From positions 1,981,501 through 2,045,500 of the forward strand of contig NC_014472.1 of the NCBI RefSeq assembly GCF_000153165.2: a stretch of 64,000 nucleotides of DNA, read 5' to 3'. Below are positions 32,745 through 50,709 of the stretch, piece by piece (the first letter of the stretch is position 1; every line of letters starts with the position of its first letter). Source of the DNA: Maribacter sp. HTCC2170. GTDB lineage: Bacteria; Bacteroidota; Bacteroidia; Flavobacteriales; Flavobacteriaceae. Below the pieces are notes generated by a model. That model was not told where the DNA came from. It ran no database searches and saw nothing but the letters and a program-made list of their open reading frames with translations. The position numbers and the translations under genes are program-made.

Positions 32745-33079
32745 TGAAAGAGGAGAACAAAAATTTTTTTCAAAAAGTTTATGAGGTTGCAAAACTCATC
32801 CCGTATGGGAGGGTCACTTCCTATGGTGCAATTGCCAAATATTTAGGAGCGGCAAGAAGCGCAAGAATGGTTGGCTGGGCCATGAACGGGGCTGGAAATT
32901 TACCCGATGTTCCAGCGCATCGTGTGGTAAACAAAATAGGTTTACTGACCGGGAAACATCATTTTGATGGAACAAACCTTATGCAACAACTATTGGAAAG
33001 TGAAGGAATTGAGGTTGTCGAAAATCAAATCATCGATTTTGACAAACATTTCTGGGACCCATGGAAGGAGTTACAATAA
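32744..33079 (+). CDS. Alkyltransferase-like protein (MGMT family without Cys)
   Basis: 111-aa protein with the DNA-binding half of O6-methylguanine-DNA methyltransferase: IPYGRVTSYGAIAKYLG, RMVGWAMNGA with the arginine-finger region, then PAHRV. In true methyltransferases this last motif is PCHRV; here the acceptor Cys is Ala58, so the protein cannot transfer the alkyl group. Family knowledge: such ATL proteins bind O6-alkylguanine and recruit nucleotide excision repair. It follows lysE with a 1-base overlap. Confidence 0.9.
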   Translation: MKEENKNFFQKVYEVAKLIPYGRVTSYGAIAKYLGAARSARMVGWAMNGAGNLPDVPAHRVVNKIGLLTGKHHFDGTNLMQQLLESEGIEVVENQIIDFDKHFWDPWKELQ

Positions 33080-33095
33080 CGTACTCATATAAGTA

Positions 33096-34442
33096 TTAAG
33101 AAAAATTTAAAGTGAATAAGGTGTGCTCTTTCGAAATTACCTGAATACTACCGCCATGTAATCTCATAATTTGTTTTGAAAGACTTAAACCTATACCAGT
33201 ACCGGTATTTTTTGTCGTGAAAAAAGGCACAAAAATTTCGTCAATAAGATCTGGGGATATTCCTGGACCATTGTCGAAAACTTGGATAATTTTTCCTCCT
33301 TTTTTATTGATCGCGGCCACAAATCTAATCGTTCCATTTTCTTGATTTGCCAATGACTGTTTGGCATTTTTGCCCAAATTCAAAAGTACTTGGGTAATCT
33401 GCTTTTCATCAATGAATAATTCTAATTCTATGGGGTCAACAATTGTTTCGATTTTAAGGTTGGTATGGTCGGCATCTGATTTCAATAGTAAGCGTATTTT
33501 CTCGAGCAGCTTGTGAGCAGATATCAATTCCTTATCAGGTTCCGGTATACTCAAGAATTTACGATATGATTGAACAAAACTCATTAAATCTTTTCCTTGG
33601 TCTTTAATTACTTCCAACCCTTTGACTGTGTTCTTTATTTCATGTTCTTCAAATGAGGTAAAGGGAATTATGGAATCACCTTTTCTAAAATATTTAAGAA
33701 TGGATTCTGATATTGATGTTATTGGAGTAATCGTATTCATGATCTCATGGGTGAGAACTCGAATTAATTTTACCCATGAATCGGTTTCCTTTTCATCGAG
33801 TTCTTTATGAATATCATGAACTATTACCAGCAAAAGGCGACTGTCTTCAATGCTTAGTGAAGTACATTTAATAGATAATAGTTTTTTTTCACGTTCATTA
33901 CTAAGCTCAAAAACGGTATTTTCAAAAGGTTCTATATTCTCAAATAATGCGTAAAGTCCCTTATCTACTTGTGTTAGTTGTTTTATGTGATTTAGTGGGT
34001 AATAATTGAGAAGGTTTTGAACCGTGGGATTGGCATAGAGAATGTGTCCTTTGGGATTAATGGTAAAAACACCCATATCTGCTTGCCGTAAAATTTCTTG
34101 GTAATATTGTTCCTGGGCCTGCTTTTTAAGATGAATATCTTGAATCATACTATTCAACATATTCAAGCTATGATTCAATTCCTCTAAAGATTTAACACTC
34201 AGTTTTTCAGGAAATCGTAAAGTGAAATCCTCGTTTTTAATGGCATCAAAAAAGTAAGCTATTTTTCTGTTGGTTTGGTTAATGTATTGAATCACAAAAA
34301 TGGTTTGCAAAACCAATAACACCAAGAATAAAGAAGTAGCCAAATACTCAGATTTAAAAAAGAAGAAAGCCATTGCAATGGCAGTAGCGGTAATCAAAAC
34401 GATCCTCAGAATTAACTGGAAGTAAATATTTCTACTAACCAT
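33096..34442 (-). CDS. NtrB-like sensor kinase with minimal extracytoplasmic loop
   Basis: 448-aa histidine kinase. Two N-terminal helices (about residues 10-29 and 34-54) are separated by only KSEY, so it lacks a periplasmic sensor. A linker and a PAS domain (YYQEILRQADMGVFTINPKG, about residues 110-220) follow, then the phosphoacceptor His232 in RVLTHEIMNTITPITS and an ATPase domain (LLNLGKNAKQSL, FDNGPGISPDLI, TGTGIGLSLSKQIM). It lies 1 nt after the sigma-54 regulator gene and is divergent to the exporter operon, so it probably senses the transporter or membrane state. That is inference, modelled on intramembrane-sensing kinases such as BceS. Confidence 0.88.
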   Translation of the reverse strand: MVSRNIYFQLILRIVLITATAIAMAFFFFKSEYLATSLFLVLLVLQTIFVIQYINQTNRKIAYFFDAIKNEDFTLRFPEKLSVKSLEELNHSLNMLNSMIQDIHLKKQAQEQYYQEILRQADMGVFTINPKGHILYANPTVQNLLNYYPLNHIKQLTQVDKGLYALFENIEPFENTVFELSNEREKKLLSIKCTSLSIEDSRLLLVIVHDIHKELDEKETDSWVKLIRVLTHEIMNTITPITSISESILKYFRKGDSIIPFTSFEEHEIKNTVKGLEVIKDQGKDLMSFVQSYRKFLSIPEPDKELISAHKLLEKIRLLLKSDADHTNLKIETIVDPIELELFIDEKQITQVLLNLGKNAKQSLANQENGTIRFVAAINKKGGKIIQVFDNGPGISPDLIDEIFVPFFTTKNTGTGIGLSLSKQIMRLHGGSIQVISKEHTLFTLNFS

Positions 34443-34443
34443 A

Positions 34444-35808
34444 TTACTTGTTCTCTTTTTTAATTTTATTGTATAAGGTTTGTCTTGATATACCTAATTG
34501 CTCAGCGGCCGCACTGTAATTACCATTGTTTTTGTTAAGAGCGTTTGCAATCATCAATTGCTCCATTTCACCCAATGTATTAGGTCCTTTTTGTAAAGAG
34601 ATTGTTGTGTTTGTATTTAAAATAAAATCGTCTGGGGATAAAATATTTCCTTCAGATAGAATAACAGCACGCTCAATCGCATGTAATAATTCTCTAATGT
34701 TACCGGGCCACCCATAAGAGTTTAGTTTTTCTTCTGCTTTTTGATTTATTTTCAATTGGGGTTTTCCATATTTAGATGTAAATTTCTTCAAGAAAAAATC
34801 TGAAAGCACCAAAATATCCCCGTCCCGTTCCCTGAGTGGAGGAACCTCAATACTTATGGTGTTTATACGGTAAAGAAGATCTTCACGAAAAAGTCCGTCA
34901 GCAACCATTTTTTCTAAATTACAATTGGTTGCGCAGATCAAACGAATATCAACGGGTATGGTTTTGTTTGAGCCAACCTTTACAATTTCTTTGTTCTGGA
35001 TTGCCGATAAAAGTTTGGCCTGTGTCTGCAGTGACAAGTTTCCTATTTCGTCCAAAAATAATGTACCTCCATTGGCCGCTTCAAATTTACCAATACGGTC
35101 TCCTTTGGCATCGGTAAATGACCCTTTTACATGTCCGAAAAGTTCACTTTCAAACAGGCTTTCAGAAATCGAACCCATATCAACAGGAATAAAAACTTCG
35201 TTTTCCCTAAGCGATAGATTATGCACTTCACGGGCAATGAGTTCTTTGCCTGTTCCGTTTTCCCCAGTAATTAATACGTTCACACTTGTTTTTGCTACTT
35301 TTCTGACGAGAGTGAGAACTGAATTAAGTGTCTTGGAATTCCCAATGATATATTCTTTATTATGGTTGATCACCTGTTTTAGACTGCTCTCTTTTTTTCT
35401 TAAATGTTTAACTTCATTTTGGGCTTTTCTTAAGTTAAAGGCTGTTTTGACCGTGGTAATTAGTCTTTCGTTGCTCCAAGGCTTTAAAATAAAATCGGAA
35501 GCACCTTCCTTCAATGCTTCAACTGCCAACTCAACAGCGCCATATGCGGTCATCATTATTACCGAAATATGAGGAGCTTTTTTTTTGATTTCCCGAAGCC
35601 AATAAAGCCCTTCATTACCTGTATTTACTCCAGCAGAGAAATTCATATCCAGTAGTATGATATCCAAAGCTGTAAAATCTGGATAAGAAGGAATCTGATT
35701 TGGGTTCGAGATGGTGTTTACACTCTTAAATTCAAACTGTAACAATATTTCCAGAGCGCTAAGCACGCTTTTGTTATCGTCTATCACTAAGATGTTTGCA
35801 TCAATCAT
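34444..35808 (-). CDS. Sigma-54-dependent response regulator (NtrC family)
   Basis: 454-aa activator from the ATG at 35808. Domains: receiver (ILVIDDNKSVLSAL, phosphoacceptor Asp54 in IILLDMNF), AAA+ domain with Walker A GENGTGKE (about residue 180), the sigma-54 contact loop GSFTDA (about 229-234), Walker B LFLDEIGNL, and a C-terminal Fis-type helix-turn-helix (GNYSAAAEQLGISRQTLYNK). The usual GAFTGA loop reads GSFTDA; similar GAFTDA loops occur in Bacteroidota, so function is likely kept. It forms a pair with the kinase downstream and probably binds the palindromes at 35869-35907. Confidence 0.93.
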   Translation of the reverse strand: MIDANILVIDDNKSVLSALEILLQFEFKSVNTISNPNQIPSYPDFTALDIILLDMNFSAGVNTGNEGLYWLREIKKKAPHISVIMMTAYGAVELAVEALKEGASDFILKPWSNERLITTVKTAFNLRKAQNEVKHLRKKESSLKQVINHNKEYIIGNSKTLNSVLTLVRKVAKTSVNVLITGENGTGKELIAREVHNLSLRENEVFIPVDMGSISESLFESELFGHVKGSFTDAKGDRIGKFEAANGGTLFLDEIGNLSLQTQAKLLSAIQNKEIVKVGSNKTIPVDIRLICATNCNLEKMVADGLFREDLLYRINTISIEVPPLRERDGDILVLSDFFLKKFTSKYGKPQLKINQKAEEKLNSYGWPGNIRELLHAIERAVILSEGNILSPDDFILNTNTTISLQKGPNTLGEMEQLMIANALNKNNGNYSAAAEQLGISRQTLYNKIKKENK

Positions 35809-35868
35809 AATTAAATAAATAAAAAGGATGGTTAAATCTACGATTTGAAATTTATTTGGCTGGGAAAG

Positions 35869-35907
35869 TGTCCAAAAATTGGACAATATCTGTAAAATAA
35901 TTTTACA
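35869..35907 (+). promoter_or_regulatory. Tandem 17-bp palindromes, candidate NtrC-type enhancer
   Basis: TGTCCAAAAATTGGACA (35869-35885) and TGTAAAATAATTTTACA (35891-35907) are both near-perfect dyads with TGT...ACA ends, and their centres are exactly 22 bp apart. They lie between the divergent sigma-54 regulator gene and the exporter operon, about 100-120 bp ahead of the likely operon start, where enhancer sites are expected. Binding by the regulator at 34444-35808 is inferred. Confidence 0.7.
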
Positions 35908-35967
35908 TTAATTTATGTGATAAATGTAGACGCTGTTGATAATGTATTGATATACAAATGATTGCAG

Positions 35968-35986
35968 TTGTGGCACAACAATAGTA
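35968..35986 (+). promoter_or_regulatory. Partial sigma-54 promoter of the exporter operon
   Basis: TTGTGGCAC gives an excellent -24 element (GG at 35972-35973). At the right spacing the -12 element reads TAGTA instead of TTGCA, keeping the G but not the C. TGTGGCA here also pairs with TGCCACA at 35994-36000. A near sigma-A box (TATAGTTTG) overlaps, so the sigma-54 reading is tentative. Confidence 0.4.
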
Positions 35987-36011
35987 TATAGTTTGCCACA
36001 TTCAATTAAGC

Positions 36012-37364
36012 ATGAATAATAAAATAAAAACAACTTTACTAATATTTGCCATGAGCTGTTCTGGACTTATTGCTCAGGACACTTGGTCTTTGGATGAATG
36101 TGTGTCCTATGCCCTTGAACACAATTTAAATCTGAAGGATTTTGAATATAATGAGGTATCCAACAAAGAAAACTATCGTCAGTCAATTCGCAATTTATTG
36201 CCAAGTGTAAGCGGTTTTGCAGGATATAATAAAAGCTTTGGAAGGTCAGAGGACCCAAATACAGGAGGTTATGTGAACACTGATTTCTTCTCGAACAACT
36301 ATTCATTGAATTCAACAATCGATTTATTTCGAGGTTTTCAAAAAATAAATACTATTAAGGTTTCCAAGTTCTTGCATAAGGCGGCCAAGGAAGATGTTGA
36401 ACAACAGAAGTATTTATTGGCGTTTAGGGTGATGTCAGCTTATTATGAAATTAAATTTTTTGAGGGATTGCTTGCAAATTCCAAAGAGCAAAAAGAGATT
36501 TCTCAAACCAATTATAATCTTGTCAATAGACAAGTTGAACTAGGGCTCAAAGCTGGGGCAGATTTAAATGAAGCCGAATCATTATTGCTTTCTGATATCT
36601 TGACTGTAACTCAAAATGATAACAATCTACAAGCCTCGCGTATTAGTCTAATTCAGGAAATGAACCTTGAAGGGGTCTCGACAATAGAATTACGGCCAGT
36701 ATTGGATAGTATTGACTATACTGAAGTTGCATCAAAAAGTTTGGACCAAGATTCCATTTTTAATAATGCAATAGATTTTATTCCGGTAATAAAGGCTCAA
36801 GAATTAAGGACTAAGGCTGCAAAAAAGAACGTTGCAGTTGCAAGAGGAAATCTTTATCCTTCATTGTCCTTCGCGGCAGGATATGGCACCGGTTATTTTG
36901 AGACCAATACGGATGATATGAACAATATAATTCCTTTTAGAACACAGATAAAAGACAACACTTCTAGGTATATTGGTTTTTCGCTTAATGTTCCCATAAG
37001 TGACAAATGGTCAAACCGCTCAAGGGTTAAACAGCAAAAAATAGCTTTATTAAGAGAAAAGAACAACCTGCAAATTCAGGAACAAGAACTCTATAAGACC
37101 ATTCAACAGTTGGTGCAGGAGAGGAATTCACTCGAGGTTGAAACGACCCAGAGCAATATGAAAGTACAATCACAGCAATTGGCATTTACAATTGCCCAAA
37201 AGCGATACGAAAAAGGATTGATAAGTGCATTGGAGTTGGTCCAGGCCAAAACATTGTTCGCTACCGCTCAAAATGAGAACTTACAAGTGCGTTTAAGTGC
37301 AGAAGTTAATAAAAGCACTCTCGATTTTTACCAAGGACTACCAGTATTTAATATAAACAATTAA
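36012..37364 (+). CDS. TolC-family outer-membrane efflux protein
   Basis: 450-aa outer-membrane channel of the OEP family. Signal peptide MNNKIKTTLLIFAMSCSGLIAQ, then WSLDECVSYALEHNLNLK, the typical first helix, and two repeats of long coiled-coil helices (for example RQVELGLKAGADLNEAESLL and KRYEKGLISALELVQAKTLF). First gene of the exporter operon at 36012-50600, upstream of its adaptor by 15 bp. Expected to form a trimeric exit duct for the MacB-type pump encoded downstream. Confidence 0.92.
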   Translation: MNNKIKTTLLIFAMSCSGLIAQDTWSLDECVSYALEHNLNLKDFEYNEVSNKENYRQSIRNLLPSVSGFAGYNKSFGRSEDPNTGGYVNTDFFSNNYSLNSTIDLFRGFQKINTIKVSKFLHKAAKEDVEQQKYLLAFRVMSAYYEIKFFEGLLANSKEQKEISQTNYNLVNRQVELGLKAGADLNEAESLLLSDILTVTQNDNNLQASRISLIQEMNLEGVSTIELRPVLDSIDYTEVASKSLDQDSIFNNAIDFIPVIKAQELRTKAAKKNVAVARGNLYPSLSFAAGYGTGYFETNTDDMNNIIPFRTQIKDNTSRYIGFSLNVPISDKWSNRSRVKQQKIALLREKNNLQIQEQELYKTIQQLVQERNSLEVETTQSNMKVQSQQLAFTIAQKRYEKGLISALELVQAKTLFATAQNENLQVRLSAEVNKSTLDFYQGLPVFNINN

Positions 37365-37379
37365 GATTTTTTACCTAAG

Positions 37380-38630
37380 ATGGATATAAAAATAGAAAAG
37401 AAAAAGGGATTGAAACCAAAGCATTACGCATATATAGCTGGTGCGATACTATTGCTTTTTGTTCTTTATAAGTTGGTAATGAGCACGTCTGTTTCAACTT
37501 TTAGAGCAGAGAAAGACAAGCTGTCATTAGGGGAGATTACCCAAGGAAAATTTGATGACTATATTACAATAAACGGTAATGTTGCTCCAATAGCTACTAT
37601 TTATATGGATGCCTACGAAGGTGGGCGTGTCAATGAAAAATTGATTGAGGAAGGTGCGATGGTTAAAAAGGGAGATATTATTTTGAAACTCGAGAATATG
37701 AATCTTTACGAGCAAATTTTAGCGAGTGAAAGTAACCTGGCCTTAAAGCAGAATGACCTTAGATCAACCAAATTAACTTTTGATTCTCGTCAAGTAGAAG
37801 GAAGGCGGTCTTTGGCTACTGCTAGTACAGATTTACAGCGATTAAAAAGAAATTTTGAACAAAATCAGGCATTATATAATGAGGAGTTGATTTCAAAAGA
37901 GACTTATTTATTGTCAAAAGAAAACTATGAACTTTCACAAAAGCAGCATGACATTGTAAAAATGCAAACTGTTAATGATGATGAGCTGCGCAAGACCTCA
38001 TTAACTGGATTGGATGCCGATTTGGCTAGAATGAAGAAAACTTTGGGTATGGTGTATGAAAGATTGGACCATTTGAACGTTCGTGCCCCAGCCGATGGTC
38101 AACTTGGATTTTTAGATGCCGAAATAGGTCAGAATATTGGTCAAGGAGAAAGAATTGGCCAAATAAATGTTTTGACAGATTTTAAAATTGAAGCGGATAT
38201 TGATGAGCACTATATCGACAGGGTTAAGCGAGATTTAAATGCAACTTTTGAACGAAATGGGCAAGAGTATGAATTAAGGTTACGAAAAGTATATCCTGAG
38301 GTTCGCAGTGGTAGATTCAAGGTTGATTTGGTATTTACAGGAGATAAACCTGAGAATATAAGAGCTGGTCAGAGCTATAATATAAAACTGCAATTGGGAG
38401 AATCTTCAGATGCCTTGCTATTACCAAAAGGTAGTTTCTTCCAAAGTACAGGTGGCCAGTGGATTTTTGTGGTTAATCAAAATGGCGGGGAAGCTTTGCG
38501 AAGAGATATTCGTATAGGTAAGCAAAACTCAAGGTACTATGAGGTACTTGAGGGTCTTGAACCAGGAGAACAAGTAATTACCAGTAATTATGCAAGTTTT
38601 GGTGAAGCAGAAAAAATAGTCTTAAAATAA
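37380..38630 (+). CDS. HlyD/MacA-type periplasmic adaptor
   Basis: 416-aa membrane-fusion protein with one N-terminal helix (YAYIAGAILLLFVLYKLVM), a split lipoyl domain (GNVAPIATIYMDAYEGGRVN ... VRAPADGQLGFLDAEIGQNI), a central coiled-coil hairpin of about 110 residues, and beta-barrel plus membrane-proximal domains. It links the TolC-like channel to the inner-membrane permeases of the same operon. A 63-bp gap with a small hairpin (38636-38649) precedes the ATPase gene. Confidence 0.9.
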   Translation: MDIKIEKKKGLKPKHYAYIAGAILLLFVLYKLVMSTSVSTFRAEKDKLSLGEITQGKFDDYITINGNVAPIATIYMDAYEGGRVNEKLIEEGAMVKKGDIILKLENMNLYEQILASESNLALKQNDLRSTKLTFDSRQVEGRRSLATASTDLQRLKRNFEQNQALYNEELISKETYLLSKENYELSQKQHDIVKMQTVNDDELRKTSLTGLDADLARMKKTLGMVYERLDHLNVRAPADGQLGFLDAEIGQNIGQGERIGQINVLTDFKIEADIDEHYIDRVKRDLNATFERNGQEYELRLRKVYPEVRSGRFKVDLVFTGDKPENIRAGQSYNIKLQLGESSDALLLPKGSFFQSTGGQWIFVVNQNGGEALRRDIRIGKQNSRYYEVLEGLEPGEQVITSNYASFGEAEKIVLK

Positions 38631-38693
38631 AATCAACTGACACATCAGTCATATGATGTTGTCTATTATACTAACAAATAATTCAATCAAGAA

Positions 38694-39389
38694 ATGATAA
38701 CGATTCAAAATTTAAAAAAGAGCTTTAGAACGGAAGAGGTAGAAACCTTGGCACTGAATAATGTCAACCTAAATGTAGCAGAAGGCGAATTTGTGGCCAT
38801 TATGGGACCCTCAGGATGTGGTAAGTCGACGCTTTTGAACATTGTTGGTATGCTAGATAACCCAACTGAAGGTAGCTACAACTTTGCGGGTAATGAAGTT
38901 GGTGGACTAAAGGAAAGTCAACGTACTCAACTGCGAAAAGGTAATCTGGGTTTTGTTTTTCAAAGTTTCAATTTAATTGACGAGTTAACGGTATATGAGA
39001 ACGTGGAACTACCCCTTATATATCTTAAAATGAGTAAGAGTGAACGAAAAGAAAAAGTGATGAAAGTACTTGAGCGAATGAAAATAGCTCACCGCGCAAA
39101 ACACTTTCCACAACAATTGTCTGGTGGTCAGCAGCAAAGAGTTGCTATTTCTAGGGCGGTTGTTACTAACCCAAAACTGATTTTAGCCGATGAGCCAACG
39201 GGTAATTTGGATTCTAAAAATGGAATAGAGGTAATGAATCTTCTTACTGAATTAAATCAGGAAGGTACAACCATTGTTATGGTAACTCACTCGGACAGGG
39301 ATTCTCATTATGCGCATAGAGTGGTTAATTTATTTGATGGTCAAATTGTGACCGAAAGTCAGAATAGAGAAATTGGGGCATTGATTTAA
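38694..39389 (+). CDS. MacB/LolD-type ABC ATPase
   Basis: 231-aa ATPase with Walker A GPSGCGKST (residues 38-46), Q-loop FVFQSFNLIDELTVYENVEL, signature LSGGQQQRVAISRA, Walker B ILADEP and intact D-loop GNLDSKNG. The sequence matches ATPases that power MacB-like permeases, working as mechanotransmission rather than classical transport. It lies just ahead of the four permease genes. Confidence 0.94.
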   Translation: MITIQNLKKSFRTEEVETLALNNVNLNVAEGEFVAIMGPSGCGKSTLLNIVGMLDNPTEGSYNFAGNEVGGLKESQRTQLRKGNLGFVFQSFNLIDELTVYENVELPLIYLKMSKSERKEKVMKVLERMKIAHRAKHFPQQLSGGQQQRVAISRAVVTNPKLILADEPTGNLDSKNGIEVMNLLTELNQEGTTIVMVTHSDRDSHYAHRVVNLFDGQIVTESQNREIGALI

Positions 39390-39416
39390 TCACATTGTTT
39401 ATTAAAGGAGTTTATT

Positions 39417-39431
39417 CATCAATCAAAAATC
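39417..39431 (+). repeat. Shared 15-nt leader, copy 1
   Basis: CATCAATCAAAAATC, identical to 44269-44283 and similar to sequences ahead of 38694 (TTCAATCAAGAAATG) and 46748 (CAATCAAAAAA). It lies 7 nt before the GTG start of permease 1. Confidence 0.6.
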
Positions 39432-39438
39432 AATAATC

Positions 39439-41793: not shown

Positions 41794-41831
41794 AATAAAA
41801 GAAGGGAACATCAATCTTAAAATCATGAATA

Positions 41832-44267
41832 ATGTTTAAAAATCATTTGAAAATAGCTTGGAGAAGTCTAAAAAAACAACCTTTTTTTACTTTTTTGAAC
41901 ACTTTTGGCCTCGCTATAGGAATAGCAGGCGGAATACTTATTTCATTATATATCTATGATGAATTAAGTTATGATAAAATGTTCGCTGACGCTGATCGGA
42001 TTCACCGAATTCATGCCGATATTAAATTTGGTGGGGAAGATCGCAAATTTGCTGTTACTCCAGCTCCTATGGCCGAGTCAGCTCAAAATGATTTTTCTGA
42101 AGTAGAGTTGGCCATGCGATTTCGTACGCAGGGTAGTATGTTAGTTCGCAAATCGGATACTGAGGCAAATATTAAGGAAATACAGACCACATATGTAGAT
42201 TCGACTTTCTTCAAAATGTTTGGGTTGGATTTATTGGTTGGTGATATTAAAACAGCCTTAAAATCTCCTAATACCTTGATTTTGACTAAATCTGCTGCTG
42301 AAAAGCATTTCAGTGTCAATGAGGCTGTTGGCCAAACTCTGATTTTAGATAATGATAATTCTTATACGGTAACAGGAGTTATTGAAGATTTTCCCAAAAA
42401 TTCGTTTTTAAGAGATCATACAGTTTTTATTGCGATGTCGGGTTATGAAGATTCTCGTATAGTGAATTGGGGGAGTAATAATTATCAAACGTATATTAAG
42501 TTGATACCGAATGCAAATATTAATGATATACAGGAGCCATTACGGGGATTTTTGGACAAGTATGTAATTCCAGGGGTACAACAGTTTATGCCAGGAATTA
42601 CAAAAGAACAGTTTGAGGCTGCAGGCAATCATTTAATCTATAGTACCATGCCAATGACTGATATTCATTTGCATTCGGATAGGGTTGCAGAAATAAGTGG
42701 GAACAATGACATCCAGAGTATCTATATTCTATCGTTCATTGCTATATTTTTACTGGTTTTGGCCTGCGTTAATTTTATGAACCTATCTACTGCGCATTCT
42801 CTTAAGAGGGCCAAGGAAGTTGGGATAAGAAAAACTTTAGGTTCTAAAAGGGGGGAACTGATCAGGCAGTTTCTGATAGAATCTGGTTTAGTCTCCTTGG
42901 CATCTTTGCTGCTGGCTGTGGTTTTGGCAATAATATTACTTCCATTGTTCAATGATTTGGCAGATAAGGATATATCAATGCCGTATACAAATCCGTTTTT
43001 CTGGTTGTTGCTTCTTGCTGCAGGTATTGCCCTTGGACTTTTTTCAGGGGGGTATCCCGCCTTTTTCATGTCAAAGTTTATTCCTGTAAAAGTTTTAAAA
43101 GGCACAAGTAGTAATAGTATTGGCGGAGGTAAAGTTAGAAACGCATTGGTGATTTTCCAATTTGCTATTTCCGTCTTTTTGATTGTCGGAACATTGGTGG
43201 TCTATCAACAATTGGATTATATTCAAAACAAAGACCTTGGTTTTTCAAAAGATCAGGTATTAATAGTGAACGATGCATTTACACTCGGTAATAAATCGAC
43301 TTCATTTAAAGAAGAAGTTAAAAAACTAAGCTATGTTAAAGATGCTACCTTGAGTAGTTTTTTTCCAACACCATCTTCCAGGTCTGATTCAACCTTTGCA
43401 CCGGAGGAAGGACTAACAGATCAGGAAAACGCTTTGAATATGCAACGTTGGGGTGTTGATCATGATTATGTGTCCACCATGAATTTTGAGATAATTGCCG
43501 GTAGGGATTTTAATCATGATTTTAAAAATGACTCCACTGCAATTATTGTAAACGAATCTGCGGTATCCGTTATTGGAGGATCGCCTGAAGATGCAATAGG
43601 TAAGCGTTACACTCCTGATTTTAGTGCGGAAAATCCGGAGTATTTTACCATAATCGGTGTGGTAAAGGATTTTCATTTTTCACCCTTTAGAGCTGATATT
43701 GAATCCTTGAGCTTACACTTAAGTAATCGCGCCTATGCTCTTGCCATCAAATTAGAATCAGGCGAATTTACAAATGCAATATCTGGAATTGAAGGTATTT
43801 GGAATCAAATAGCACCAGGGCAACCATTTGACTATTATTTTATGGAGGATTCATTTAATGATACGTATCAATCAGAACAGCGCTTGGGTAGAATATTTTT
43901 CATATTCACTGCCTTGTCTATATTAATTGCGTGTTTGGGTTTATTTGGCTTGGCCGCGTTTAATGCCGAAAAGCGTACCAAAGAAATTGGCATAAGAAAA
44001 GTTCTTGGGGCAAGTGTTGGGCAGATTTCATATAAACTATCGGTTGACTTTTTAAAATTGGTAGGTGTTGCTATTCTAGTTTCTCTTCCATTGGGCTGGT
44101 TTGCCATGAACAAATGGTTAGAGGATTTTTCATACCGTATTGAAATTGGTATTTGGGTCTTTGTTTTTGCAGCGTTATTAGCAATTGCCATTTCAATTAT
44201 TACCGTTAGTTATCAAAGTATTAAAGCCGCAATAGTAAACCCCATAAAAAGTTTACGTACAGAATAA
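41832..44267 (+). CDS. MacB/FtsX-family ABC permease 2
   Basis: 811-aa paralogue with the same double FtsX architecture (TFGLAIGIAGGILISLYIYD, VLACVNFMNLSTAHSLKRAK, LIACLGLFGLAAFNAEKRTK) and NPIKSLRTE tail. It is most like permease 3: both begin with YLKIAWRSLK-type sequence followed by QPFFT and share matching segments throughout, so they probably arose by a recent tandem duplication. The periplasmic domains differ from permeases 1 and 4, suggesting different client or partner contacts. Confidence 0.92.
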   Translation: MFKNHLKIAWRSLKKQPFFTFLNTFGLAIGIAGGILISLYIYDELSYDKMFADADRIHRIHADIKFGGEDRKFAVTPAPMAESAQNDFSEVELAMRFRTQGSMLVRKSDTEANIKEIQTTYVDSTFFKMFGLDLLVGDIKTALKSPNTLILTKSAAEKHFSVNEAVGQTLILDNDNSYTVTGVIEDFPKNSFLRDHTVFIAMSGYEDSRIVNWGSNNYQTYIKLIPNANINDIQEPLRGFLDKYVIPGVQQFMPGITKEQFEAAGNHLIYSTMPMTDIHLHSDRVAEISGNNDIQSIYILSFIAIFLLVLACVNFMNLSTAHSLKRAKEVGIRKTLGSKRGELIRQFLIESGLVSLASLLLAVVLAIILLPLFNDLADKDISMPYTNPFFWLLLLAAGIALGLFSGGYPAFFMSKFIPVKVLKGTSSNSIGGGKVRNALVIFQFAISVFLIVGTLVVYQQLDYIQNKDLGFSKDQVLIVNDAFTLGNKSTSFKEEVKKLSYVKDATLSSFFPTPSSRSDSTFAPEEGLTDQENALNMQRWGVDHDYVSTMNFEIIAGRDFNHDFKNDSTAIIVNESAVSVIGGSPEDAIGKRYTPDFSAENPEYFTIIGVVKDFHFSPFRADIESLSLHLSNRAYALAIKLESGEFTNAISGIEGIWNQIAPGQPFDYYFMEDSFNDTYQSEQRLGRIFFIFTALSILIACLGLFGLAAFNAEKRTKEIGIRKVLGASVGQISYKLSVDFLKLVGVAILVSLPLGWFAMNKWLEDFSYRIEIGIWVFVFAALLAIAISIITVSYQSIKAAIVNPIKSLRTE

Positions 44268-44268
44268 T

Positions 44269-44283
44269 CATCAATCAAAAATC
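44269..44283 (+). repeat. Shared 15-nt leader, copy 2
   Basis: CATCAATCAAAAATC, identical to 39417-39431, 7 nt before the ATG of permease 3. Confidence 0.6.
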
Positions 44284-44290
44284 GTCAATC

Positions 44291-46723
44291 ATGTTTAAAA
44301 ACTATCTAAAAATCGCATGGAGAAGCCTAAAAAGGCAACCTTTTTTCACTTCCCTAAATGTTTTTGGCCTCGCTATTGGTATGGCAGGCGGTTTGCTTAT
44401 TTCATTATACATCTATGATGAATTAAGTTTTGATAAAATGTTTACAGATGCAAATCGAATATATAGAATAGATACTGATATTAAATTTGGAGGAGCTGAA
44501 ATGAGAGCTTCAGAAGCCGCTGCTCCAATGGCTGCTGCAATGCAAAGTGATTTTCCACAAGTAGAAATGACCTTTAGGTTTCGTAATAGTGGAAGCATTC
44601 TGTTAAGGAAAAGTGACTCTGAAACAAATACAAAAGAATTGAATGCAACTTTTGCGGATACCAATTTTTTTGATTTTTTTGGAATTGACTTACTAGTTGG
44701 AGACTCAGATACAGCATTGAAAGAACCCAATACGGTGATATTGACCAAAACGGCGGCTGAGAAACATTTTGGAATACAGAGTGCATTGGGGCAAAGTTTG
44801 TTATTGAATAATACTGACACCTACACCGTAACTGGGGTTATTGATGATCTACCTAAAAATTCCTTATTAAGAAACCACTCTGTTTTTATGTCGATGTCTG
44901 GGTATCCTCCTGCTCATGAGAATAATTGGGGTAGTAATAATTTTGTAACGTTTGTTAAGTTGATATCCTCAGCAAATGCTGCAGATTTTGAGGTGCCGTT
45001 ACAAGGTATGCTAGAAAAGTATATGCTCCCTTGGGCACAACAATTTTTTCCGGGTATCACAAAAGAAACATTCCTTGCAGCGGGTAATTATTTAGATTAC
45101 CATACAATGCCCTTGACCGATATACATTTGCATTCCTCTCGTGATCAAGAATTGAGTGCCAATAGTAGCATGCAAAATGTTTACATATTATCGTTTATTG
45201 GACTTTTTCTTATAGTATTGGCCTGTGTAAATTTTATGAACTTATCCACGGCCTATTCGTTAAAAAGAGCAAAAGAGGTGGGTGTTCGAAAGACTTTGGG
45301 GTCTAATAAAGCAGATCTGGTACGTCAATTCTTGATTGAATCAGGACTCATTTCTTTCATCTCCTTGCTTTTTGCCTTGTTGGTCACTATTATGGCGTTA
45401 CCGTTTTTCAATGAGCTTTCTGGCAAATCCGTTACCGTTCCGATTACCAATCCTTTTTTCTGGGGAATTTTACTTATTGCGACAGTTCTTTTAGCACTTT
45501 TCTCAGGAAGTTACCCTGCTTTTTTTATGTCGAAATTTGTTCCCGTTAAAGTACTTAAAGGAAGTGGTGATAGTAGTGTAGGTGGTGGTAAAATCAGGAA
45601 CACATTAGTAGTTTTCCAGTTTGCCATATCGGTTTTTTTAATTGTTAGCACGTTGGTCGTTTTTCAGCAGTTGAATTTTATTCAAAATAAAGATTTAGGA
45701 TTTGCCAAAGAACAAGTTGTTTTGATTGAAGATGTCTACGCCGCGGGAAGTCAAGCACAGACATTTAAGGAAGAAACTCAAAAGTTAGGCCTAGTGCAAA
45801 GCGCAACCTTAAGTGGCTTCATGCCCACGCCCTCCTCGCGCTCCAATAGTTCTTATTTTAAGGAAGGGGCAAGGGAACAAGAAAATGCAATTCAAATACA
45901 AACTTGGAATGTTGATGAGAATTATCTCGCAACATTGAATATGGAACTTGTTGAAGGGCGTAATTTCAACAAAGAGTTTGCCACGGATTCTACGGCGGCA
46001 ATTATTAACGAGGCAACCTTGAAAGTTCTTGGTGTACAGCCCCATGAAGCTTTGGGGATGCGTATTTCAGACGATATTGAATTAGAAACTCCCCAATTCT
46101 TCACCATTATTGGTGTAGTTAAAGATTTTCATTACGAATCATTACGTGAAGATATTGGTGCCTTGGGACTCTTCTATAGAGAATCATCTGGAATGATGGC
46201 AGTGAAGTTAAATGCGGGTGATTTTTCGAAGGCAATTGCTGACATCGAAGAGGTGTGGAGCAAATTGGCCCCTGGTCAACCATTTAGTTATAGTTTCATG
46301 GACGAATCGTTCAATTCCACCTATGAGGCAGAACATCGCTTGGGCAAGATATTTATGATTTTCACCATACTTTCTATTTTGATAGCCTGCCTTGGTTTGT
46401 TCGGACTGGCTGCTTTTAACGCACAAAAGCGTACTAAAGAAATTGGTGTGAGAAAGGTTTTGGGAGCAAGTGTAGGTCAAATAACGTATAAACTTACCGT
46501 TGACTTTCTTAGGCTTGTTGGTGTTGCCATTCTCGTTTCTATACCCTTGGGCTGGTATGTCATGAACAAATGGTTGGAAGATTTTTCATACCGAATAGAA
46601 ATTGGATGGGGAGTTTTTGTTTTTGCTGCATTTTTAGCAATAGTGGTAGCTGTACTGACCGTCAGTTATCAAAGTATTAAGGCAGCCATTGTAAATCCAG
46701 TTGAGAGTTTAAGAACCGAGTAA
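44291..46723 (+). CDS. MacB/FtsX-family ABC permease 3
   Basis: 810-aa close paralogue of permease 2 with VFGLAIGMAGGLLISLYIYD, VLACVNFMNLSTAYSLKRAK, LIACLGLFGLAAFNAQKRTK and the NPVESLRTE tail. Both periplasmic domains and all FtsX helices are complete. It follows the stop of permease 2 by 23 bp. Confidence 0.93.
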   Translation: MFKNYLKIAWRSLKRQPFFTSLNVFGLAIGMAGGLLISLYIYDELSFDKMFTDANRIYRIDTDIKFGGAEMRASEAAAPMAAAMQSDFPQVEMTFRFRNSGSILLRKSDSETNTKELNATFADTNFFDFFGIDLLVGDSDTALKEPNTVILTKTAAEKHFGIQSALGQSLLLNNTDTYTVTGVIDDLPKNSLLRNHSVFMSMSGYPPAHENNWGSNNFVTFVKLISSANAADFEVPLQGMLEKYMLPWAQQFFPGITKETFLAAGNYLDYHTMPLTDIHLHSSRDQELSANSSMQNVYILSFIGLFLIVLACVNFMNLSTAYSLKRAKEVGVRKTLGSNKADLVRQFLIESGLISFISLLFALLVTIMALPFFNELSGKSVTVPITNPFFWGILLIATVLLALFSGSYPAFFMSKFVPVKVLKGSGDSSVGGGKIRNTLVVFQFAISVFLIVSTLVVFQQLNFIQNKDLGFAKEQVVLIEDVYAAGSQAQTFKEETQKLGLVQSATLSGFMPTPSSRSNSSYFKEGAREQENAIQIQTWNVDENYLATLNMELVEGRNFNKEFATDSTAAIINEATLKVLGVQPHEALGMRISDDIELETPQFFTIIGVVKDFHYESLREDIGALGLFYRESSGMMAVKLNAGDFSKAIADIEEVWSKLAPGQPFSYSFMDESFNSTYEAEHRLGKIFMIFTILSILIACLGLFGLAAFNAQKRTKEIGVRKVLGASVGQITYKLTVDFLRLVGVAILVSIPLGWYVMNKWLEDFSYRIEIGWGVFVFAAFLAIVVAVLTVSYQSIKAAIVNPVESLRTE

Positions 46724-46747
46724 GAACAATCAAAAAAAGAATCGATC

Positions 46748-49147
46748 ATGTTTAAAAACTATTTAAAAATTGCTTGGAGAAACTTAATAAAGAATAAGGC
46801 CTATTCCATCATCAATATTGGAGGCCTTGCATTAGGAATGGCAGTCACGCTAATTATTGGGCTTTGGATTCAGGATGAACTCACATATAACAATTATTTC
46901 CAAAACGAAACGAAAATTGCACAAGTATTTCAATCACAAACCTTTAATAACGAAACAGGGACCGGACCAGCTATACCCAGACCTTTAGAAAAGGCATTGC
47001 GAGAAGGGTATGGTGATAATTTCAAGCATTTGATAATGGTGACTTGGACCAACGACCGCTACTTGAAATATAAGGAAACCAATCTATCTCGATCGGGTAA
47101 TTATGCGCAACGAGAGGCTCCTGAACTGTTTGAACTGCAAATTGTCAAAGGAGAAAAAGATGGACTCCGAGAAATCAATTCTATTATGCTTTCCGAATCA
47201 ACTGCCAAAGCGCTGTTTGGTGATGAAGCACCTATTGGAAAAACTGTTCAAGTAGGCAATCGGGATGATTTGATGGTAAGTGCTATCTTCAAAGATATTC
47301 CGGTAAATAATTCTTTTAACGACACCGATTTCCTTATTCCATGGGAACAGTATCTGTCTACAACAGAATGGGTAAGAAACGCGGAGGATAGTTGGGGTAA
47401 CAATTCTTTTCAAATGTTTGTTCAATTGGCTGATAATACAAATATGGGTATGGTTAGTGAGTCCATTCGCAATGTTAAGAAAGATTTGAATGAAGATACA
47501 GCGGAATTTAATCCACAGATTTTTCTTTTTCCGATGGAAGATTGGCATCTGCACAGCAATTTTGAAAATGGGAAACAAACTGGAGGGAGAATCAAGTATG
47601 TTTGGTTATTTGGTGTTATTGGAGCTTTTGTACTTCTGTTGGCGTGTATCAACTTCATGAATTTGAGCACAGCCAGATCTGAAAAAAGGAGTAAAGAAGT
47701 TGGAATTCGTAAATCAATCGGTTCTCAAAGAGGTCAATTGATTTATCAGTTTTTAAGTGAATCGTTCTTGGTGGTTTTGTTCGCTTTTTTCATTGCGTTG
47801 GTTATTGTATTACTGTCCCTTAACGGATTTAATGAATTGGCTCGGAAAGAGATTGTCTTTCCATGGTCAAACCCAATTTTTTGGGGTATTTCTTTACTAT
47901 TTGTTCTTTTTACGGCATTATTGGCGGGAAGTTACCCAGCCCTGTATTTGTCTTCTTTTAAACCCGTTGATGTTCTAAAAGGAACTTTTAGATCAGGGCG
48001 ATATGCCGGTCTGCCAAGAAAAATATTGGTGGTGGTTCAGTTTACGGTATCAGTAGCTTTTATAATAGGTACGGTCATAGTGATGCAACAGATTAATCAT
48101 GCAAAAAATCGCCCTGTTGGATATGATAAAGAAGGGTTAATTCAGGTGCCGACATTTAGTCAAGACTTTAACGGCAAGTATGATTTGATGCGAACAGAGT
48201 TCTTAAGTTCTAATGCGGTTATTGGGATGTCATCTTCTAGCAGTCCGACCACCCGAATCTGGTCTAACAGAGGAGGTTTTACATGGGAAGGAAAACCTGA
48301 AGGGTTTCAAGAAGATTTGGCTTGGACGGAAGTATCTCCCGAATATGCTTCATCATTGAATTTGAAGATTTTAGAAGGACGAGATTTTTCAAGAGAATTC
48401 GCTACCGATTCATTAGGAGTGCTTATCAATGAGACTGCTAAGAACTATTTGGGAATGGCCGATCCCGTTGGTAAATTTTTAAAAGATGATGATGATGAAG
48501 ATCCTAACCCGCCTTTAAAAATAATAGGTGTGGTTCAAGATATGATTACACAATCTCCTTATGAGCCTGTAAAACAGGGGGTTTATGTATATGACAGATT
48601 TAATAATTCCAGCTATTATAATCTAAGGTTAAATCCTGAGAAAAGTTCGAGTGAGAATATTGCAACCGTTGAACGGGTATTTAAAGAGCATTTTCCAGAT
48701 ATACCTTTCGAGTACGATTTTATAGATGAAGAATACGGAGAAAAATTTGCTTCTGAGGAGCGTATCGGTAGCCTATCTGGGATTTTTACGGCTCTGGCAA
48801 TTTTAATCAGTTGCCTTGGTTTGTTTGGTCTTACATCATTTGTTGCGGAGCAACGAACCAAGGAGATTGGTGTACGTAAAGTATTGGGAGCTTCAGTTTT
48901 CAATGTTTGGAATATGCTTTCAAAAGATTTTTTGAAGCTAGTGATTATCTCATGTTTTATAGCCGTTCCAGTCGCGTATTTCGTAATGAATGGTTGGTTG
49001 CAAGAATACCCTTATCGAATTATTCTGAAATGGTGGATTTTTGCTTTGGCTATGGTCGGTGCAATGTTGGTGACCGTTATTACTGTAAGTTTTCAGGCAA
49101 TAAAAGCAGCTAAGCAAAATCCTGTAAAGAGTTTACGAACCGAATAA
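46748..49147 (+). CDS. MacB/FtsX-family ABC permease 4
   Basis: 799-aa permease, with NIGGLALGMAVTLIIGLWIQ at the N-terminus, LLACINFMNLSTARSEKRSK, LISCLGLFGLTSFVAEQRTK, and tail NPVKSLRTE. It groups with permease 1 rather than with 2 and 3. The preceding 24-bp gap has a variant of the shared leader. Followed after 32 bp by the DUF2807 gene. Confidence 0.92.
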   Translation: MFKNYLKIAWRNLIKNKAYSIINIGGLALGMAVTLIIGLWIQDELTYNNYFQNETKIAQVFQSQTFNNETGTGPAIPRPLEKALREGYGDNFKHLIMVTWTNDRYLKYKETNLSRSGNYAQREAPELFELQIVKGEKDGLREINSIMLSESTAKALFGDEAPIGKTVQVGNRDDLMVSAIFKDIPVNNSFNDTDFLIPWEQYLSTTEWVRNAEDSWGNNSFQMFVQLADNTNMGMVSESIRNVKKDLNEDTAEFNPQIFLFPMEDWHLHSNFENGKQTGGRIKYVWLFGVIGAFVLLLACINFMNLSTARSEKRSKEVGIRKSIGSQRGQLIYQFLSESFLVVLFAFFIALVIVLLSLNGFNELARKEIVFPWSNPIFWGISLLFVLFTALLAGSYPALYLSSFKPVDVLKGTFRSGRYAGLPRKILVVVQFTVSVAFIIGTVIVMQQINHAKNRPVGYDKEGLIQVPTFSQDFNGKYDLMRTEFLSSNAVIGMSSSSSPTTRIWSNRGGFTWEGKPEGFQEDLAWTEVSPEYASSLNLKILEGRDFSREFATDSLGVLINETAKNYLGMADPVGKFLKDDDDEDPNPPLKIIGVVQDMITQSPYEPVKQGVYVYDRFNNSSYYNLRLNPEKSSSENIATVERVFKEHFPDIPFEYDFIDEEYGEKFASEERIGSLSGIFTALAILISCLGLFGLTSFVAEQRTKEIGVRKVLGASVFNVWNMLSKDFLKLVIISCFIAVPVAYFVMNGWLQEYPYRIILKWWIFALAMVGAMLVTVITVSFQAIKAAKQNPVKSLRTE

Positions 49148-49179
49148 TTCAATTAACTATTCACAAAATATTTTGAATC

Positions 49180-49917
49180 ATGAAAAGAAGAATTTCGATT
49201 TTAATAATGTTGTTAACGGTTACCATTTGGGCACAGGAAAAAACAATTAGTGTTGGGCATTTTGATAAAGTTACTGTTAACCCGCATATTGAAGCAACTT
49301 TTGTTCAAGGTGATAAAGAACAGGTGCAAATAGAGAGTTGTACAGTGTCAATGAATAAAGTAAACACTGAGATTAAAGGTAAAACACTTCGTATTTATCT
49401 AGATGGAGCAAAAGAAATAACCAAAAATGAGAAAGTAAAAGAGAATGGTTATAAAAGGAGTAAATCCATCTATAATGGCACAGTTCTGAAAGTGATAATC
49501 ACATATAGAAACTTGGAAGAACTTTCATTGAGGGGTGAAGAGAAATTTGTTTGTGAAAGTCCATTGAATAGTGATCGGTTTCAATTGAAAATATATGGTC
49601 AATCACAAGTATATCTTTCCCAAGTTGATTTTAATGAATTGCAGGCATCTATTTACGGAGAAAGCTTTTTGGAAATTCAATCCGGAAGAATAGATAGGCA
49701 GAAATATACTGCTTATGGAGAAACCAGGATTAATGCACTGGGCATTAAAAATAATAGTACTAAAATCGTAGCCTATGGTGAAGGTAGTTATAGAGTGAAT
49801 GTCTCGAAAAGATTGAAAGTTACTGCATACGGTGAGGCAACCATTGCCTATAAAGGGTCGCCAGATGTTGATAGGGGGATTATAATTGGTGAGGCCACAA
49901 TTCAAAGTATTGATTAA
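49180..49917 (+). CDS. DUF2807 (head-GIN) secreted protein
   Basis: 245-aa exported protein with signal peptide MKRRISILIMLLTVTIWAQ and a DUF2807/GIN domain predicted to form a right-handed beta-helix: repeated short strands such as LSLRGEEKFVC, LKIYGQSQVYLS, ASIYGESFLEI, YTAYGETRINA, VTAYGEATIA. DUF2807 proteins are common in Bacteroidota and of uncertain role, perhaps surface adhesion or polymer binding. Its place inside the exporter operon, between permease 4 and the second ATPase, suggests a link to the transport process. Confidence 0.86.
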   Translation: MKRRISILIMLLTVTIWAQEKTISVGHFDKVTVNPHIEATFVQGDKEQVQIESCTVSMNKVNTEIKGKTLRIYLDGAKEITKNEKVKENGYKRSKSIYNGTVLKVIITYRNLEELSLRGEEKFVCESPLNSDRFQLKIYGQSQVYLSQVDFNELQASIYGESFLEIQSGRIDRQKYTAYGETRINALGIKNNSTKIVAYGEGSYRVNVSKRLKVTAYGEATIAYKGSPDVDRGIIIGEATIQSID

Positions 49918-49934
49918 CAAGTAAATTAAAGACC

Positions 49935-50600
49935 ATGTTACTACAACTAAACAATATTTTTAAGTGGGTACAATCTGGCGGACAGCGCATCTTCTTATTG
50001 AAAGATATAAATCTAGAAGTGGAGGAAGGCGAGTTCATATCAATAATGGGGCCTTCTGGTTCAGGAAAATCTACTTTACTCAATGTTATTGGTATGTTAG
50101 ATTCTTTTGATGAGGGTGAGTATAATTTTATGGATGAATCTGTTCATACACTTAAAGAAAAACACCGCTCAAATCTGTATAAACAGTACATCGGATTTGT
50201 TTTTCAATCGTATCACCTATTGGATGACCTTACAGTACAGGAAAATTTGGAAATGCCTTTACTTTATAAAAAAGTCAAATCTTCTGAACGAAAAGCTAGG
50301 GTTGCCGATATGCTGGACCGCTTTAGTATTGTAGGGAAAAAGGACCTTTTTCCTGCGCAATTAAGTGGTGGGCAACAACAATTGGTCGGTGTGGCCAGGG
50401 CACTTATGGCGAACCCGAAACTTATTTTGGCAGATGAGCCAACGGGCAACTTAAACTCTACCCAAAGTACAGAAATAATGGAGTTGTTCAAAAAACTGAA
50501 CCAGGATGGAGTTACTATTATCCAAGTGACCCATTCAGAACAAAATGCCGCTTATGGCTCCCGTATTATCAATCTTTTAGATGGTCGAAAAATCGTGTAA
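49935..50600 (+). CDS. Second MacB-type ABC ATPase with altered motifs
   Basis: 221-aa ATPase with Walker A GPSGSGKST (39-47) and Walker B LADEP intact, but the signature reads LSGGQQQLVGVARA (Leu150 where Arg is usual), and the D-loop is GNLNS (Asn174 where Asp is usual). Both residues lie at the dimer interface in MacB-type ATPases. It may pair with the first ATPase or serve a subset of the four permeases; reduced activity is possible. It is the last gene of the exporter operon. Confidence 0.9.
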   Translation: MLLQLNNIFKWVQSGGQRIFLLKDINLEVEEGEFISIMGPSGSGKSTLLNVIGMLDSFDEGEYNFMDESVHTLKEKHRSNLYKQYIGFVFQSYHLLDDLTVQENLEMPLLYKKVKSSERKARVADMLDRFSIVGKKDLFPAQLSGGQQQLVGVARALMANPKLILADEPTGNLNSTQSTEIMELFKKLNQDGVTIIQVTHSEQNAAYGSRIINLLDGRKIV

Positions 50601-50675
50601 GTAGACTTATAAGACTGGTCTATAATACCATTCCACTTTTCAATTCAATAACTTTAGTTTCTTGCCCTTAAAGCG

Positions 50676-50683
50676 TATCTTTG
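50676..50683 (+). promoter_or_regulatory. Putative promoter (TATCTTTG -7; TTAG near -33)
   Basis: TAnnTTTG match ending 26 nt before the mrp gene, with TTTAG at 50653-50657 about 18 nt upstream as a weak -33 element. It separates mrp-nifU from the exporter operon. Confidence 0.55.
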
Positions 50684-50709
50684 TTGTTTAGAATGAATTT
50701 ACATAGCGC

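Follow-up and report, generated by a model that had tools for sequence, protein, structure and literature searches.

The window analysed is a stretch of 64,000 nucleotides of Maribacter sp. HTCC2170 (contig NC_014472.1, positions 1,981,501 to 2,045,500), in which positions 33,096 to 50,600 carry the genes of a histidine kinase and an NtrC-type regulator, divergent from a tolC-hlyD-ATPase-permease operon. All eleven genes are intact and in the order given by a preliminary description of this DNA, i.e., kinase and regulator on one side and, on the other, TolC, HlyD, an ATPase, four MacB/FtsX permeases, a DUF2807 protein and a second ATPase. The plus-strand run extends from 36012 to 50600 with intergenic gaps of 15 to 63 base pairs (bp). 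Ten of the eleven gene products were covered by the Pfam scan (permease C was left out). The features are the following, with positions in the window.

33096 to 34442, minus strand: histidine kinase of 448 amino acids (aa), with membrane hairpin, HAMP-like helices, predicted PAS-type fold, DHp with H232 and CA (open reading frame, Pfam, AlphaFold2).
34444 to 35808, minus strand: NtrC-type response regulator of 454 aa, with receiver, sigma-54 AAA+ domain (loop GSFTDA) and Fis-type helix-turn-helix.
35869 to 35885, no strand: palindrome 1, TGTCCAAAAATTGGACA, upstream of the operon.
35891 to 35907, no strand: palindrome 2, TGTAAAATAATTTTACA, starting 22 bp past the start of palindrome 1.
35971 to 35986, plus strand: sigma-54-type -24/-12 element, TGGCACAACAATAGTA (GG-N10-GT), with its GG 64 bp past palindrome 2.
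36012 to 37364, plus strand: TolC-type outer-membrane duct (Pfam and curated models).
37380 to 38630, plus strand: HlyD/MacA-type periplasmic adaptor, which passes TIGR01730 (RND_mfp); its top curated model is DarC, below cut-off.
38694 to 39389, plus strand: ABC ATPase 1, top curated relative DarD, below cut-off.
39439 to 41793, plus strand: doubled MacB/FtsX permease A.
41832 to 44267, plus strand: doubled MacB/FtsX permease B, with eight membrane helices and two periplasmic domains in the AlphaFold2 model.
44291 to 46723, plus strand: doubled MacB/FtsX permease C, 64% identical to B.
46748 to 49147, plus strand: doubled MacB/FtsX permease D.
49180 to 49917, plus strand: DUF2807 protein, with a similar protein at 5 of 50 family loci fetched (see below).
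49935 to 50600, plus strand: ABC ATPase 2, at the far end of the permease run, likewise in several relatives.

The kinase has no periplasmic sensor domain and a very short loop, as in intramembrane-sensing histidine kinases. Hydropathy places its membrane helices at residues 10-28 and 33-51. The AlphaFold2 model (alignment of 23 relatives; mean predicted local distance difference test, pLDDT, 80.8; predicted template modelling score, pTM, 0.46) has a helix at 2-29, a turn at 30-32, helices at 33-69 and 84-120 and a PAS-type fold at ~123-210, then DHp and CA. The hydropathy gap and the turn (about 3 residues) agree with the joint of about four residues described previously. Among 124 kinases (L084 and L085 left out of this count), the loop between aligned residues 29 and 33 has 2-4 residues in 120 and 11 residues in 4; a loop of a few residues leaves no room for a periplasmic sensor. 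The loop sequence is not conserved, and the membrane helices are poorly conserved apart from one Arg at position 13, near the start of helix 1, kept in 88% of these kinases. The linker-PAS segment is moderately conserved (mean pairwise column identity 0.29). The Pfam PAS match is below cut-off in the window kinase and just above it in one relative, while no Pfam HAMP match was obtained in the window kinase, the HAMP-like label for the stretch after helix 2 being our own reading. The closest curated models are AtoS/ZraS rather than NtrB. The label "NtrB-like" given previously is thus to be corrected as to the closest models; nor is the kinase devoid of further domains in the cytoplasm, where the PAS-type fold is predicted.

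This anatomy allows two accounts in which the exporter is not the signal. According to the first, the pair is a usual switch of NtrB/AtoS style: the signal, a small molecule or a redox cue, is bound by the cytoplasmic PAS, the hairpin is an anchor and the exporter is output only. The PAS-type fold of the model agrees with this, as do the top curated and solved relatives (AtoS, ZraS and PAS kinases among them) and the covariation with the adaptor, which is higher for the HAMP and PAS segments than for the membrane helices. Nevertheless, we consider it rather unlikely, since (i) the genomes concerned also have soluble kinases of ~362 aa as partners of NtrC regulators, so that an anchor would not be needed; (ii) the loop is kept at 2-4 residues in nearly all kinases; (iii) the kinase is closely co-distributed with one permease type; (iv) the linker-PAS segment is only moderately conserved and indicates no ligand. 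According to the second, the hairpin senses the membrane itself (fluidity, thickness, lipid packing or inserted peptides), the exporter being the response only. DesK- and LiaS-type kinases are models for such sensing. The lack of a periplasmic domain and the conserved Arg are in its favour, as are 12 loci outside the family (of 80) where a short-loop kinase has no exporter in the fetched stretch. This account is improbable, because it leaves the close tracking of this exporter by the kinase unexplained and the helix sequences are otherwise poorly conserved.

The kinase was searched in 149 genomes of the family. Among the matches listed, 50 besides the window reach the membrane part or nearly, and together with the window they represent 45 of the 149 genomes. 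Up to 20 kb, contigs permitting, were fetched around each of them. A sigma-54 regulator is found at 50/50 loci and an adaptor plus a MacB/FtsX permease at 48/50, the remaining two (L045, L070) being truncated at contig ends; the exporter is divergent from the regulator in 46 of the 50. It must be kept in mind that this survey is biased, since the matches were found with a short-loop query.

A survey starting from the regulator was thus of interest. The strong sigma-54 activators of 27 genomes gave 105 rows (92 places newly fetched in 91 stretches, 11 already sampled and 2 weak ones left out). The regulator-kinase loci comprise 11 soluble kinases of ~362 aa, 12 kinases of ~800-850 aa with helices ~240-250 residues apart, one protein of 626 aa with no predicted helices, and 11 short-loop kinases (window included). 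A MacB-type exporter adjoins 11/11 short-loop kinases vs. 1/24 of the other regulator-kinase loci (Fisher, 2.9e-8), the sole case among the latter (L127) having a soluble kinase and a half-size permease. A permease-like frame of 163 aa lies within 7.5 kb of one of the kinase-less regulators (L145). The doubled permease is found in 10 of the 27 genomes, exactly the 10 with a short-loop kinase, and is confined to the kinase locus except in genome G018.

The same co-occurrence is found in 296 Bacteroidota genomes (six genomes with weak permease matches left out): 76 have kinase and doubled permease, 1 the kinase alone, 13 the permease alone and 206 neither (Fisher, 1e-55, a value which ignores relatedness). 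One of the permease-alone genomes, G397, has a kinase match truncated by a contig end. On the strict count, 76 of 77 kinase genomes have the doubled permease, and 76 of 80 when three weaker matches are added. The preliminary description had proposed such a linkage survey, and the linkage came through it (48/50 family loci, 11/11 short-loop kinases, 76/77 genomes).

The kinase-exporter linkage is not due to chance. These results support the view, from sequence, that the short-loop kinase, the NtrC regulator, the sigma-54-type control and the MacB/FtsX exporter form a conserved and co-inherited unit. It could be argued that the neighbourhood has no mechanistic meaning, i.e., that a two-component pair simply lies beside the pump it controls and senses via a partner encoded elsewhere. 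Two-component genes commonly adjoin pumps, and no full-length kinase was matched in 13 of the 89 genomes with the permease. This is very improbable, since other kinase classes with the same kind of regulator are exporter-linked at 1/24 loci only, and palindrome pairs mark permeases in trans too.

At L084 and L085 the exporter has the same direction as the regulator-kinase genes and the permeases are half-size; their kinase loop looks short too.

The Pfam domains of the regulator are Receiver, Sigma54_activat and HTH_8; the loop motif of sigma-54 activators, here GSFTDA, is usually named GAFTGA. The start retained for the regulator is the ATG at 35808, the listed TTG at 35886 lying further upstream. 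With these domains, the upstream sites, the -24/-12 element and an encoded RpoN, the regulator-kinase pair can be assigned, by sequence, to the NtrC-family sigma-54 two-component systems. Three strong sigma-54 activators and one RpoN are encoded in the host genome, a single contig of 3.87 Mb. No second full-length relative of the kinase was found in it, the next match spanning residues 220-447 only. A generic scan of 33000-50800 for sigma-70 promoters and terminators gave no excess over shuffles, and no tandem repeats were found in the same interval.

The intergenic regions between the regulator and the first exporter gene were compared for the window and 46 loci, 44 of them being at least 90 bp long. 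A strict palindrome pair (TGT-N10/11-ACA) is present in 21 of the 44, always 22 bp apart, and in 0.06% of shuffles. A match of at least 7/8 to TTGGCACG is found in 19/44 regions vs. 2.6% of shuffles; the window site scores 6. The position of the -24 element was read relative to the palindromes: TGGCAY lies at 52-55 or 62-67 bp, on one side, in 47 of 55 distinct palindrome pairs (a count without shuffled control), the two distances differing by about one helical turn. Within 130 bp, all but 2 of 69 TGGCAY matches fall into three clusters (53-54, 63-66 and 86-89). The -12 half is T-N-G-N-W, with G in 74%, i.e., looser than the textbook form.

In the relatives, a second conserved TGGCA element is seen ~23 bp downstream of the -24 element (19/69 matches, 86-89 bp from the palindromes). 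Its counterpart in the window, at 35992-35999, is degenerate (TTTGCCAC).

The palindrome pair was also searched in whole genomes. In the host genome, the degenerate 39-bp pair pattern matches once, at the window site. In 15 other genomes with a related kinase it gives 33 sites, in 13 of the 15, the reversed control giving 3; thus, host included, the 16 kinase-bearing genomes have 34 sites vs. 3 for the reversed pattern. On the contrary, 17 kinase-less genomes have 4 sites vs. 7 for the reversed control. Loci are given for 17 of the 33 sites, and 17/17 are upstream of exporter genes (9 tolC, 7 doubled permease, 1 ATPase). Eight of the located sites are not at tolC; 5 of these lie no more than ~30 kb from the kinase and 3 on a different contig. 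Among the 16 sites without loci, one (G050, C7) does not look palindromic. The putative operator pair marks further permeases both in cis and in trans. The prediction that the regulator drives the exporter operon has strong support from position, from conservation and from genome-wide specificity.

The permeases of the window have 784-811 aa, and A, B and D each contain two MacB_PCD and two FtsX stretches (Pfam). The fold of the permease B model matches YbbAP (E 8e-19, 13% identity), MacB and, more weakly, BceAB-S (E 1.4e-8); BceB gave no sequence match to the permease at E 0.001. The largest set is that of G018, where no fewer than 26 doubled permeases follow one another on the same strand over ~65 kb beside the kinase (L278-L280, L037); since the first permease is cut by the fetched edge, the array could extend further. 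It adjoins a single set of kinase, regulator, TolC, adaptor and ATPase genes. Its members are 22-56% identical to one another, and this low identity makes an assembly artefact unlikely. The median identity is 0.23 in both periplasmic domains vs. 0.35 and 0.43 in the two membrane regions. G018 also has dispersed doubled permeases (including L281-L294), with a palindrome pair upstream of 5 of 16 and no recognised ATPase nearby. Given these 5 pairs, the dispersed permeases may be controlled and powered in trans.

The comparison with known systems leads to a mixed picture. The preliminary description had seen here a possible sigma-54 counterpart of the Bce modules of Firmicutes (BceRS-BceAB). A literal Bce-type module was rejected. 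What is shared is the two-helix kinase without extracytoplasmic domain, HAMP and an associated FtsX/MacB-superfamily transporter. The Bce regulator is of OmpR type and BceS is not known to have a cytoplasmic PAS domain, whereas the system described here has an NtrC/sigma-54 regulator and a kinase modelled with a PAS-type fold. The match of BceS (334 aa) to the kinase profile is confined to 305-447, i.e., the ATPase domain. The Bce permease has ten helices and one large extracellular domain, and works with no adaptor protein, according to the part of PMC5985334 consulted. On the contrary, the permease modelled here is a doubled MacB permease with eight helices and two periplasmic domains, and there are an adaptor, TolC, several permeases and a Gram-negative host. 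What is retained of the counterpart is a conserved unit of short-loop kinase, NtrC regulator, sigma-54-type control and exporter. In Bce systems, the kinase pair controls the expression of the associated FtsX/MacB-superfamily transporter, and in the model put forward for BceS the kinase reads the transporter (PMC10314905 and PMC8534201, in the portions consulted). For the system of the window, the link of the kinase signal to the exporter is a reading that we infer, not a consequence of membership in the Bce type.

MacAB-TolC has in common the adaptor, the MacB-type permease fold and the TolC duct, but its ATPase is fused in MacB (654 aa) instead of being a separate gene, and the permeases are here doubled and often several. 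The accessible part of PMC5985334 places E. coli and Salmonella MacAB under PhoPQ. The darobactin exporter DarBCD and ADOP provide the top curated models for ATPase 1 (DarD), the adaptor (DarC) and the permease (ADOP, then DarB), all four scores (NF038007, NF038008, NF038010, TIGR03434) being below cut-off: in bits, 301/375 for DarD, 202/450 for DarC, 302/622 for ADOP and 141/700 for DarB. To our knowledge, the DarBCD/ADOP definitions include no sigma-54 kinase. E. coli YbbAP is the closest solved fold of the doubled permease, with the 13% identity given above only, and we know of no adaptor, duct or two-component pair associated with it. Finally, AtoS/ZraS-type kinases with NtrC-family regulators are the top NCBIfam and PDB sequence relatives of the window kinase (the latter including PAS kinases as well). 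AtoS and ZraS carry a periplasmic sensor part, in place of which the relatives of the window kinase have the turn of 2-4 residues in 120 of 124 cases.

No description of the kinase-regulator-exporter module was found in the open-access literature, most subscription papers being outside the search. The statement that no such system is described stands in this respect; however, predicted sigma-54 promoters before COG0577/FtsX-like permeases have been reported in Bacteroidia, gamma-Proteobacteria and Opitutia, and claimed as first evidence (PMC12316311, 2025, in part). As far as the accessible text goes, that work is a promoter scan, in which no kinase type, gene linkage, palindrome pair, permease array or trans sites are seen for these permeases. 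Porphyromonas gingivalis PG1431/PG1432 was considered as a studied relative and dropped; the papers, in the parts consulted, give it as FimSR, and one assigns its regulator to the LuxR family.

The distribution outside the family was obtained from a scan of named genomes, in which the best 80 of 578 relatives were taken and up to 10 kb fetched on each side. These loci range from Zobellia and Maribacter to Bacteroides, and occur also in a few metagenome assemblies labelled Latescibacterota, Acidobacteriota, Ignavibacteria, Cloacimonadota, KSB1 and Zixibacteriota. A sigma-54 regulator gene is present at 77/80, a recognised permease at 47/80 and an adaptor or a permease at 62/80. On the kinase tree of 125 rows, loci sharing an exporter layout group together strongly (34 changes vs. 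72 in shuffles), and the distances of kinase and adaptor correlate at 0.85 over 93 loci.

Three layouts may be mentioned separately. L228, L232, L238, L241 and L243 (also L191, L208, L219 and L222) have an adaptor and an ATPase, with TolC in some, beside the kinase-regulator pair. In L217, L221 and L226 (Bacteroides), two small genes of ~236-269 aa, in the same orientation as the regulator, directly precede it; ATPase and permease genes are present, with no adaptor within the fetched stretch. L205 has a 1446-aa open frame between the regulator and the ATPase-permease genes.

Taken together, the results point to a tripartite ABC exporter of modular make-up with a sigma-54 switch of its own, in which the kinase would most likely be signalled by contact with the exporter (rough probability 0.55). 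The sequence supports the gene order, the kinase anatomy, the linkage, the operator/promoter architecture and the sites before permeases in cis and in trans. The kinase would phosphorylate the NtrC-type regulator. Two regulator dimers, seated on the palindromes at their 22-bp spacing, would then activate RpoN-polymerase at the -24/-12 promoter in front of the tolC-hlyD-ATPase-permease operon. In permease-rich relatives, like sites precede extra permease genes along the array or elsewhere on the chromosome, and thus one motor, adaptor and duct would serve a permease repertoire. As the kinase lacks a periplasmic domain and its distribution follows that of the permeases, its signal would most likely come by exporter contact: the state of the exporter (working or idle) would be signalled through the membrane hairpin and the HAMP/PAS region. 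A kinase reading the exporter is the simplest account of a kinase that has no part outside the membrane and tracks one permease type across the phylum, and it fits the data best. Judging from the likeness of its parts to MacB, YbbAP and the darobactin exporter, the exporter probably handles envelope-active peptides, lipids or lipoproteins.

Several results weigh against this interpretation. On the kinase side, (i) the protein is not domain-free in the cytoplasm, and as the predicted PAS-type fold is kept, a soluble ligand could be the signal; (ii) the membrane helices show no covariation with the adaptor beyond the regulator's share (partial correlation 0.08 and -0.09, vs. 0.43 for HAMP, 0.32 for PAS, 0.15 for DHp and 0.22 for CA), although these helices are short, weakly conserved segments. 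On the DNA side, (iii) the strict pair is missing in 23/44 intergenic regions (12 with one palindrome and 11 with none, many of the latter forming, by eye, one subgroup with a diverged palindrome); (iv) the -12 half is degenerate, and the window has GT in place of GC; (v) 2 of the 16 kinase-bearing genomes are without any site. As for the distribution, (vi) full-length kinase matches are lacking in the 13 of 89 permease-positive genomes cited above; (vii) the three weaker full-length matches (G210, G298, G302) are in genomes without doubled permease; (viii) an adaptor without a recognised permease is seen at 15 of the 80 outside loci, which a contig end explains for 6 (L180, L215, L229, L240, L246, L254) and not for 9 (L191, L208, L219, L222, L228, L232, L238, L241, L243), where short or very distant permeases may have escaped detection; (ix) 12 of the 80 are short-loop kinases with no exporter within the fetched stretch (L210, L212, L218, L220, L230, L231, L234, L236, L245, L247, L255, L256). 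The latter come from 18 outside loci without adaptor or permease, of which L209, L237, L248 and L249 (cut near kinase or regulator), L224 (TolC-like gene) and L223 (TolC and ATPase) were set aside. Pfam on ten genes near L210, L218, L220, L231, L245, L255 and L256 gave unrelated genes around these seven loci (Nramp, GARS, UvrD, GDPD, lactonase, CarboxypepD_reg, transglutaminase-like and others). The operons without a recognised permease, the unlinked relatives, the PAS-type fold and the covariation result speak against exporter sensing in particular. The gene arrangement first described is confirmed, and its interpretation partly supported.

A wider form of the exporter reading is tentatively considered, namely that of a repertoire exporter, in which one kinase, motor, adaptor and duct would work with many interchangeable doubled permeases (arrays to at least 26, plus those in trans), each of them presumably for a different substrate. 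What the kinase would then read is a state common to them, and the use of any permease would raise the supply of the whole set. This form is clearly less probable than the exporter-signalled switch as such.

If the exporter-signalled switch is correct, sensing coupled to a transporter would have arisen, or been rebuilt, from NtrC/sigma-54 parts in bacteria other than Firmicutes. Many Bacteroidota would then hold a system for envelope defence or export that seems not to have been studied and whose permease set can be expanded. A control function would also be suggested for scattered FtsX-type permeases without their own ATPase nearby. The operator and promoter code is explicit enough for target genes to be predicted in related genomes, and both a role of RpoN in Bacteroidota and the signal of sensor-less kinases become testable.

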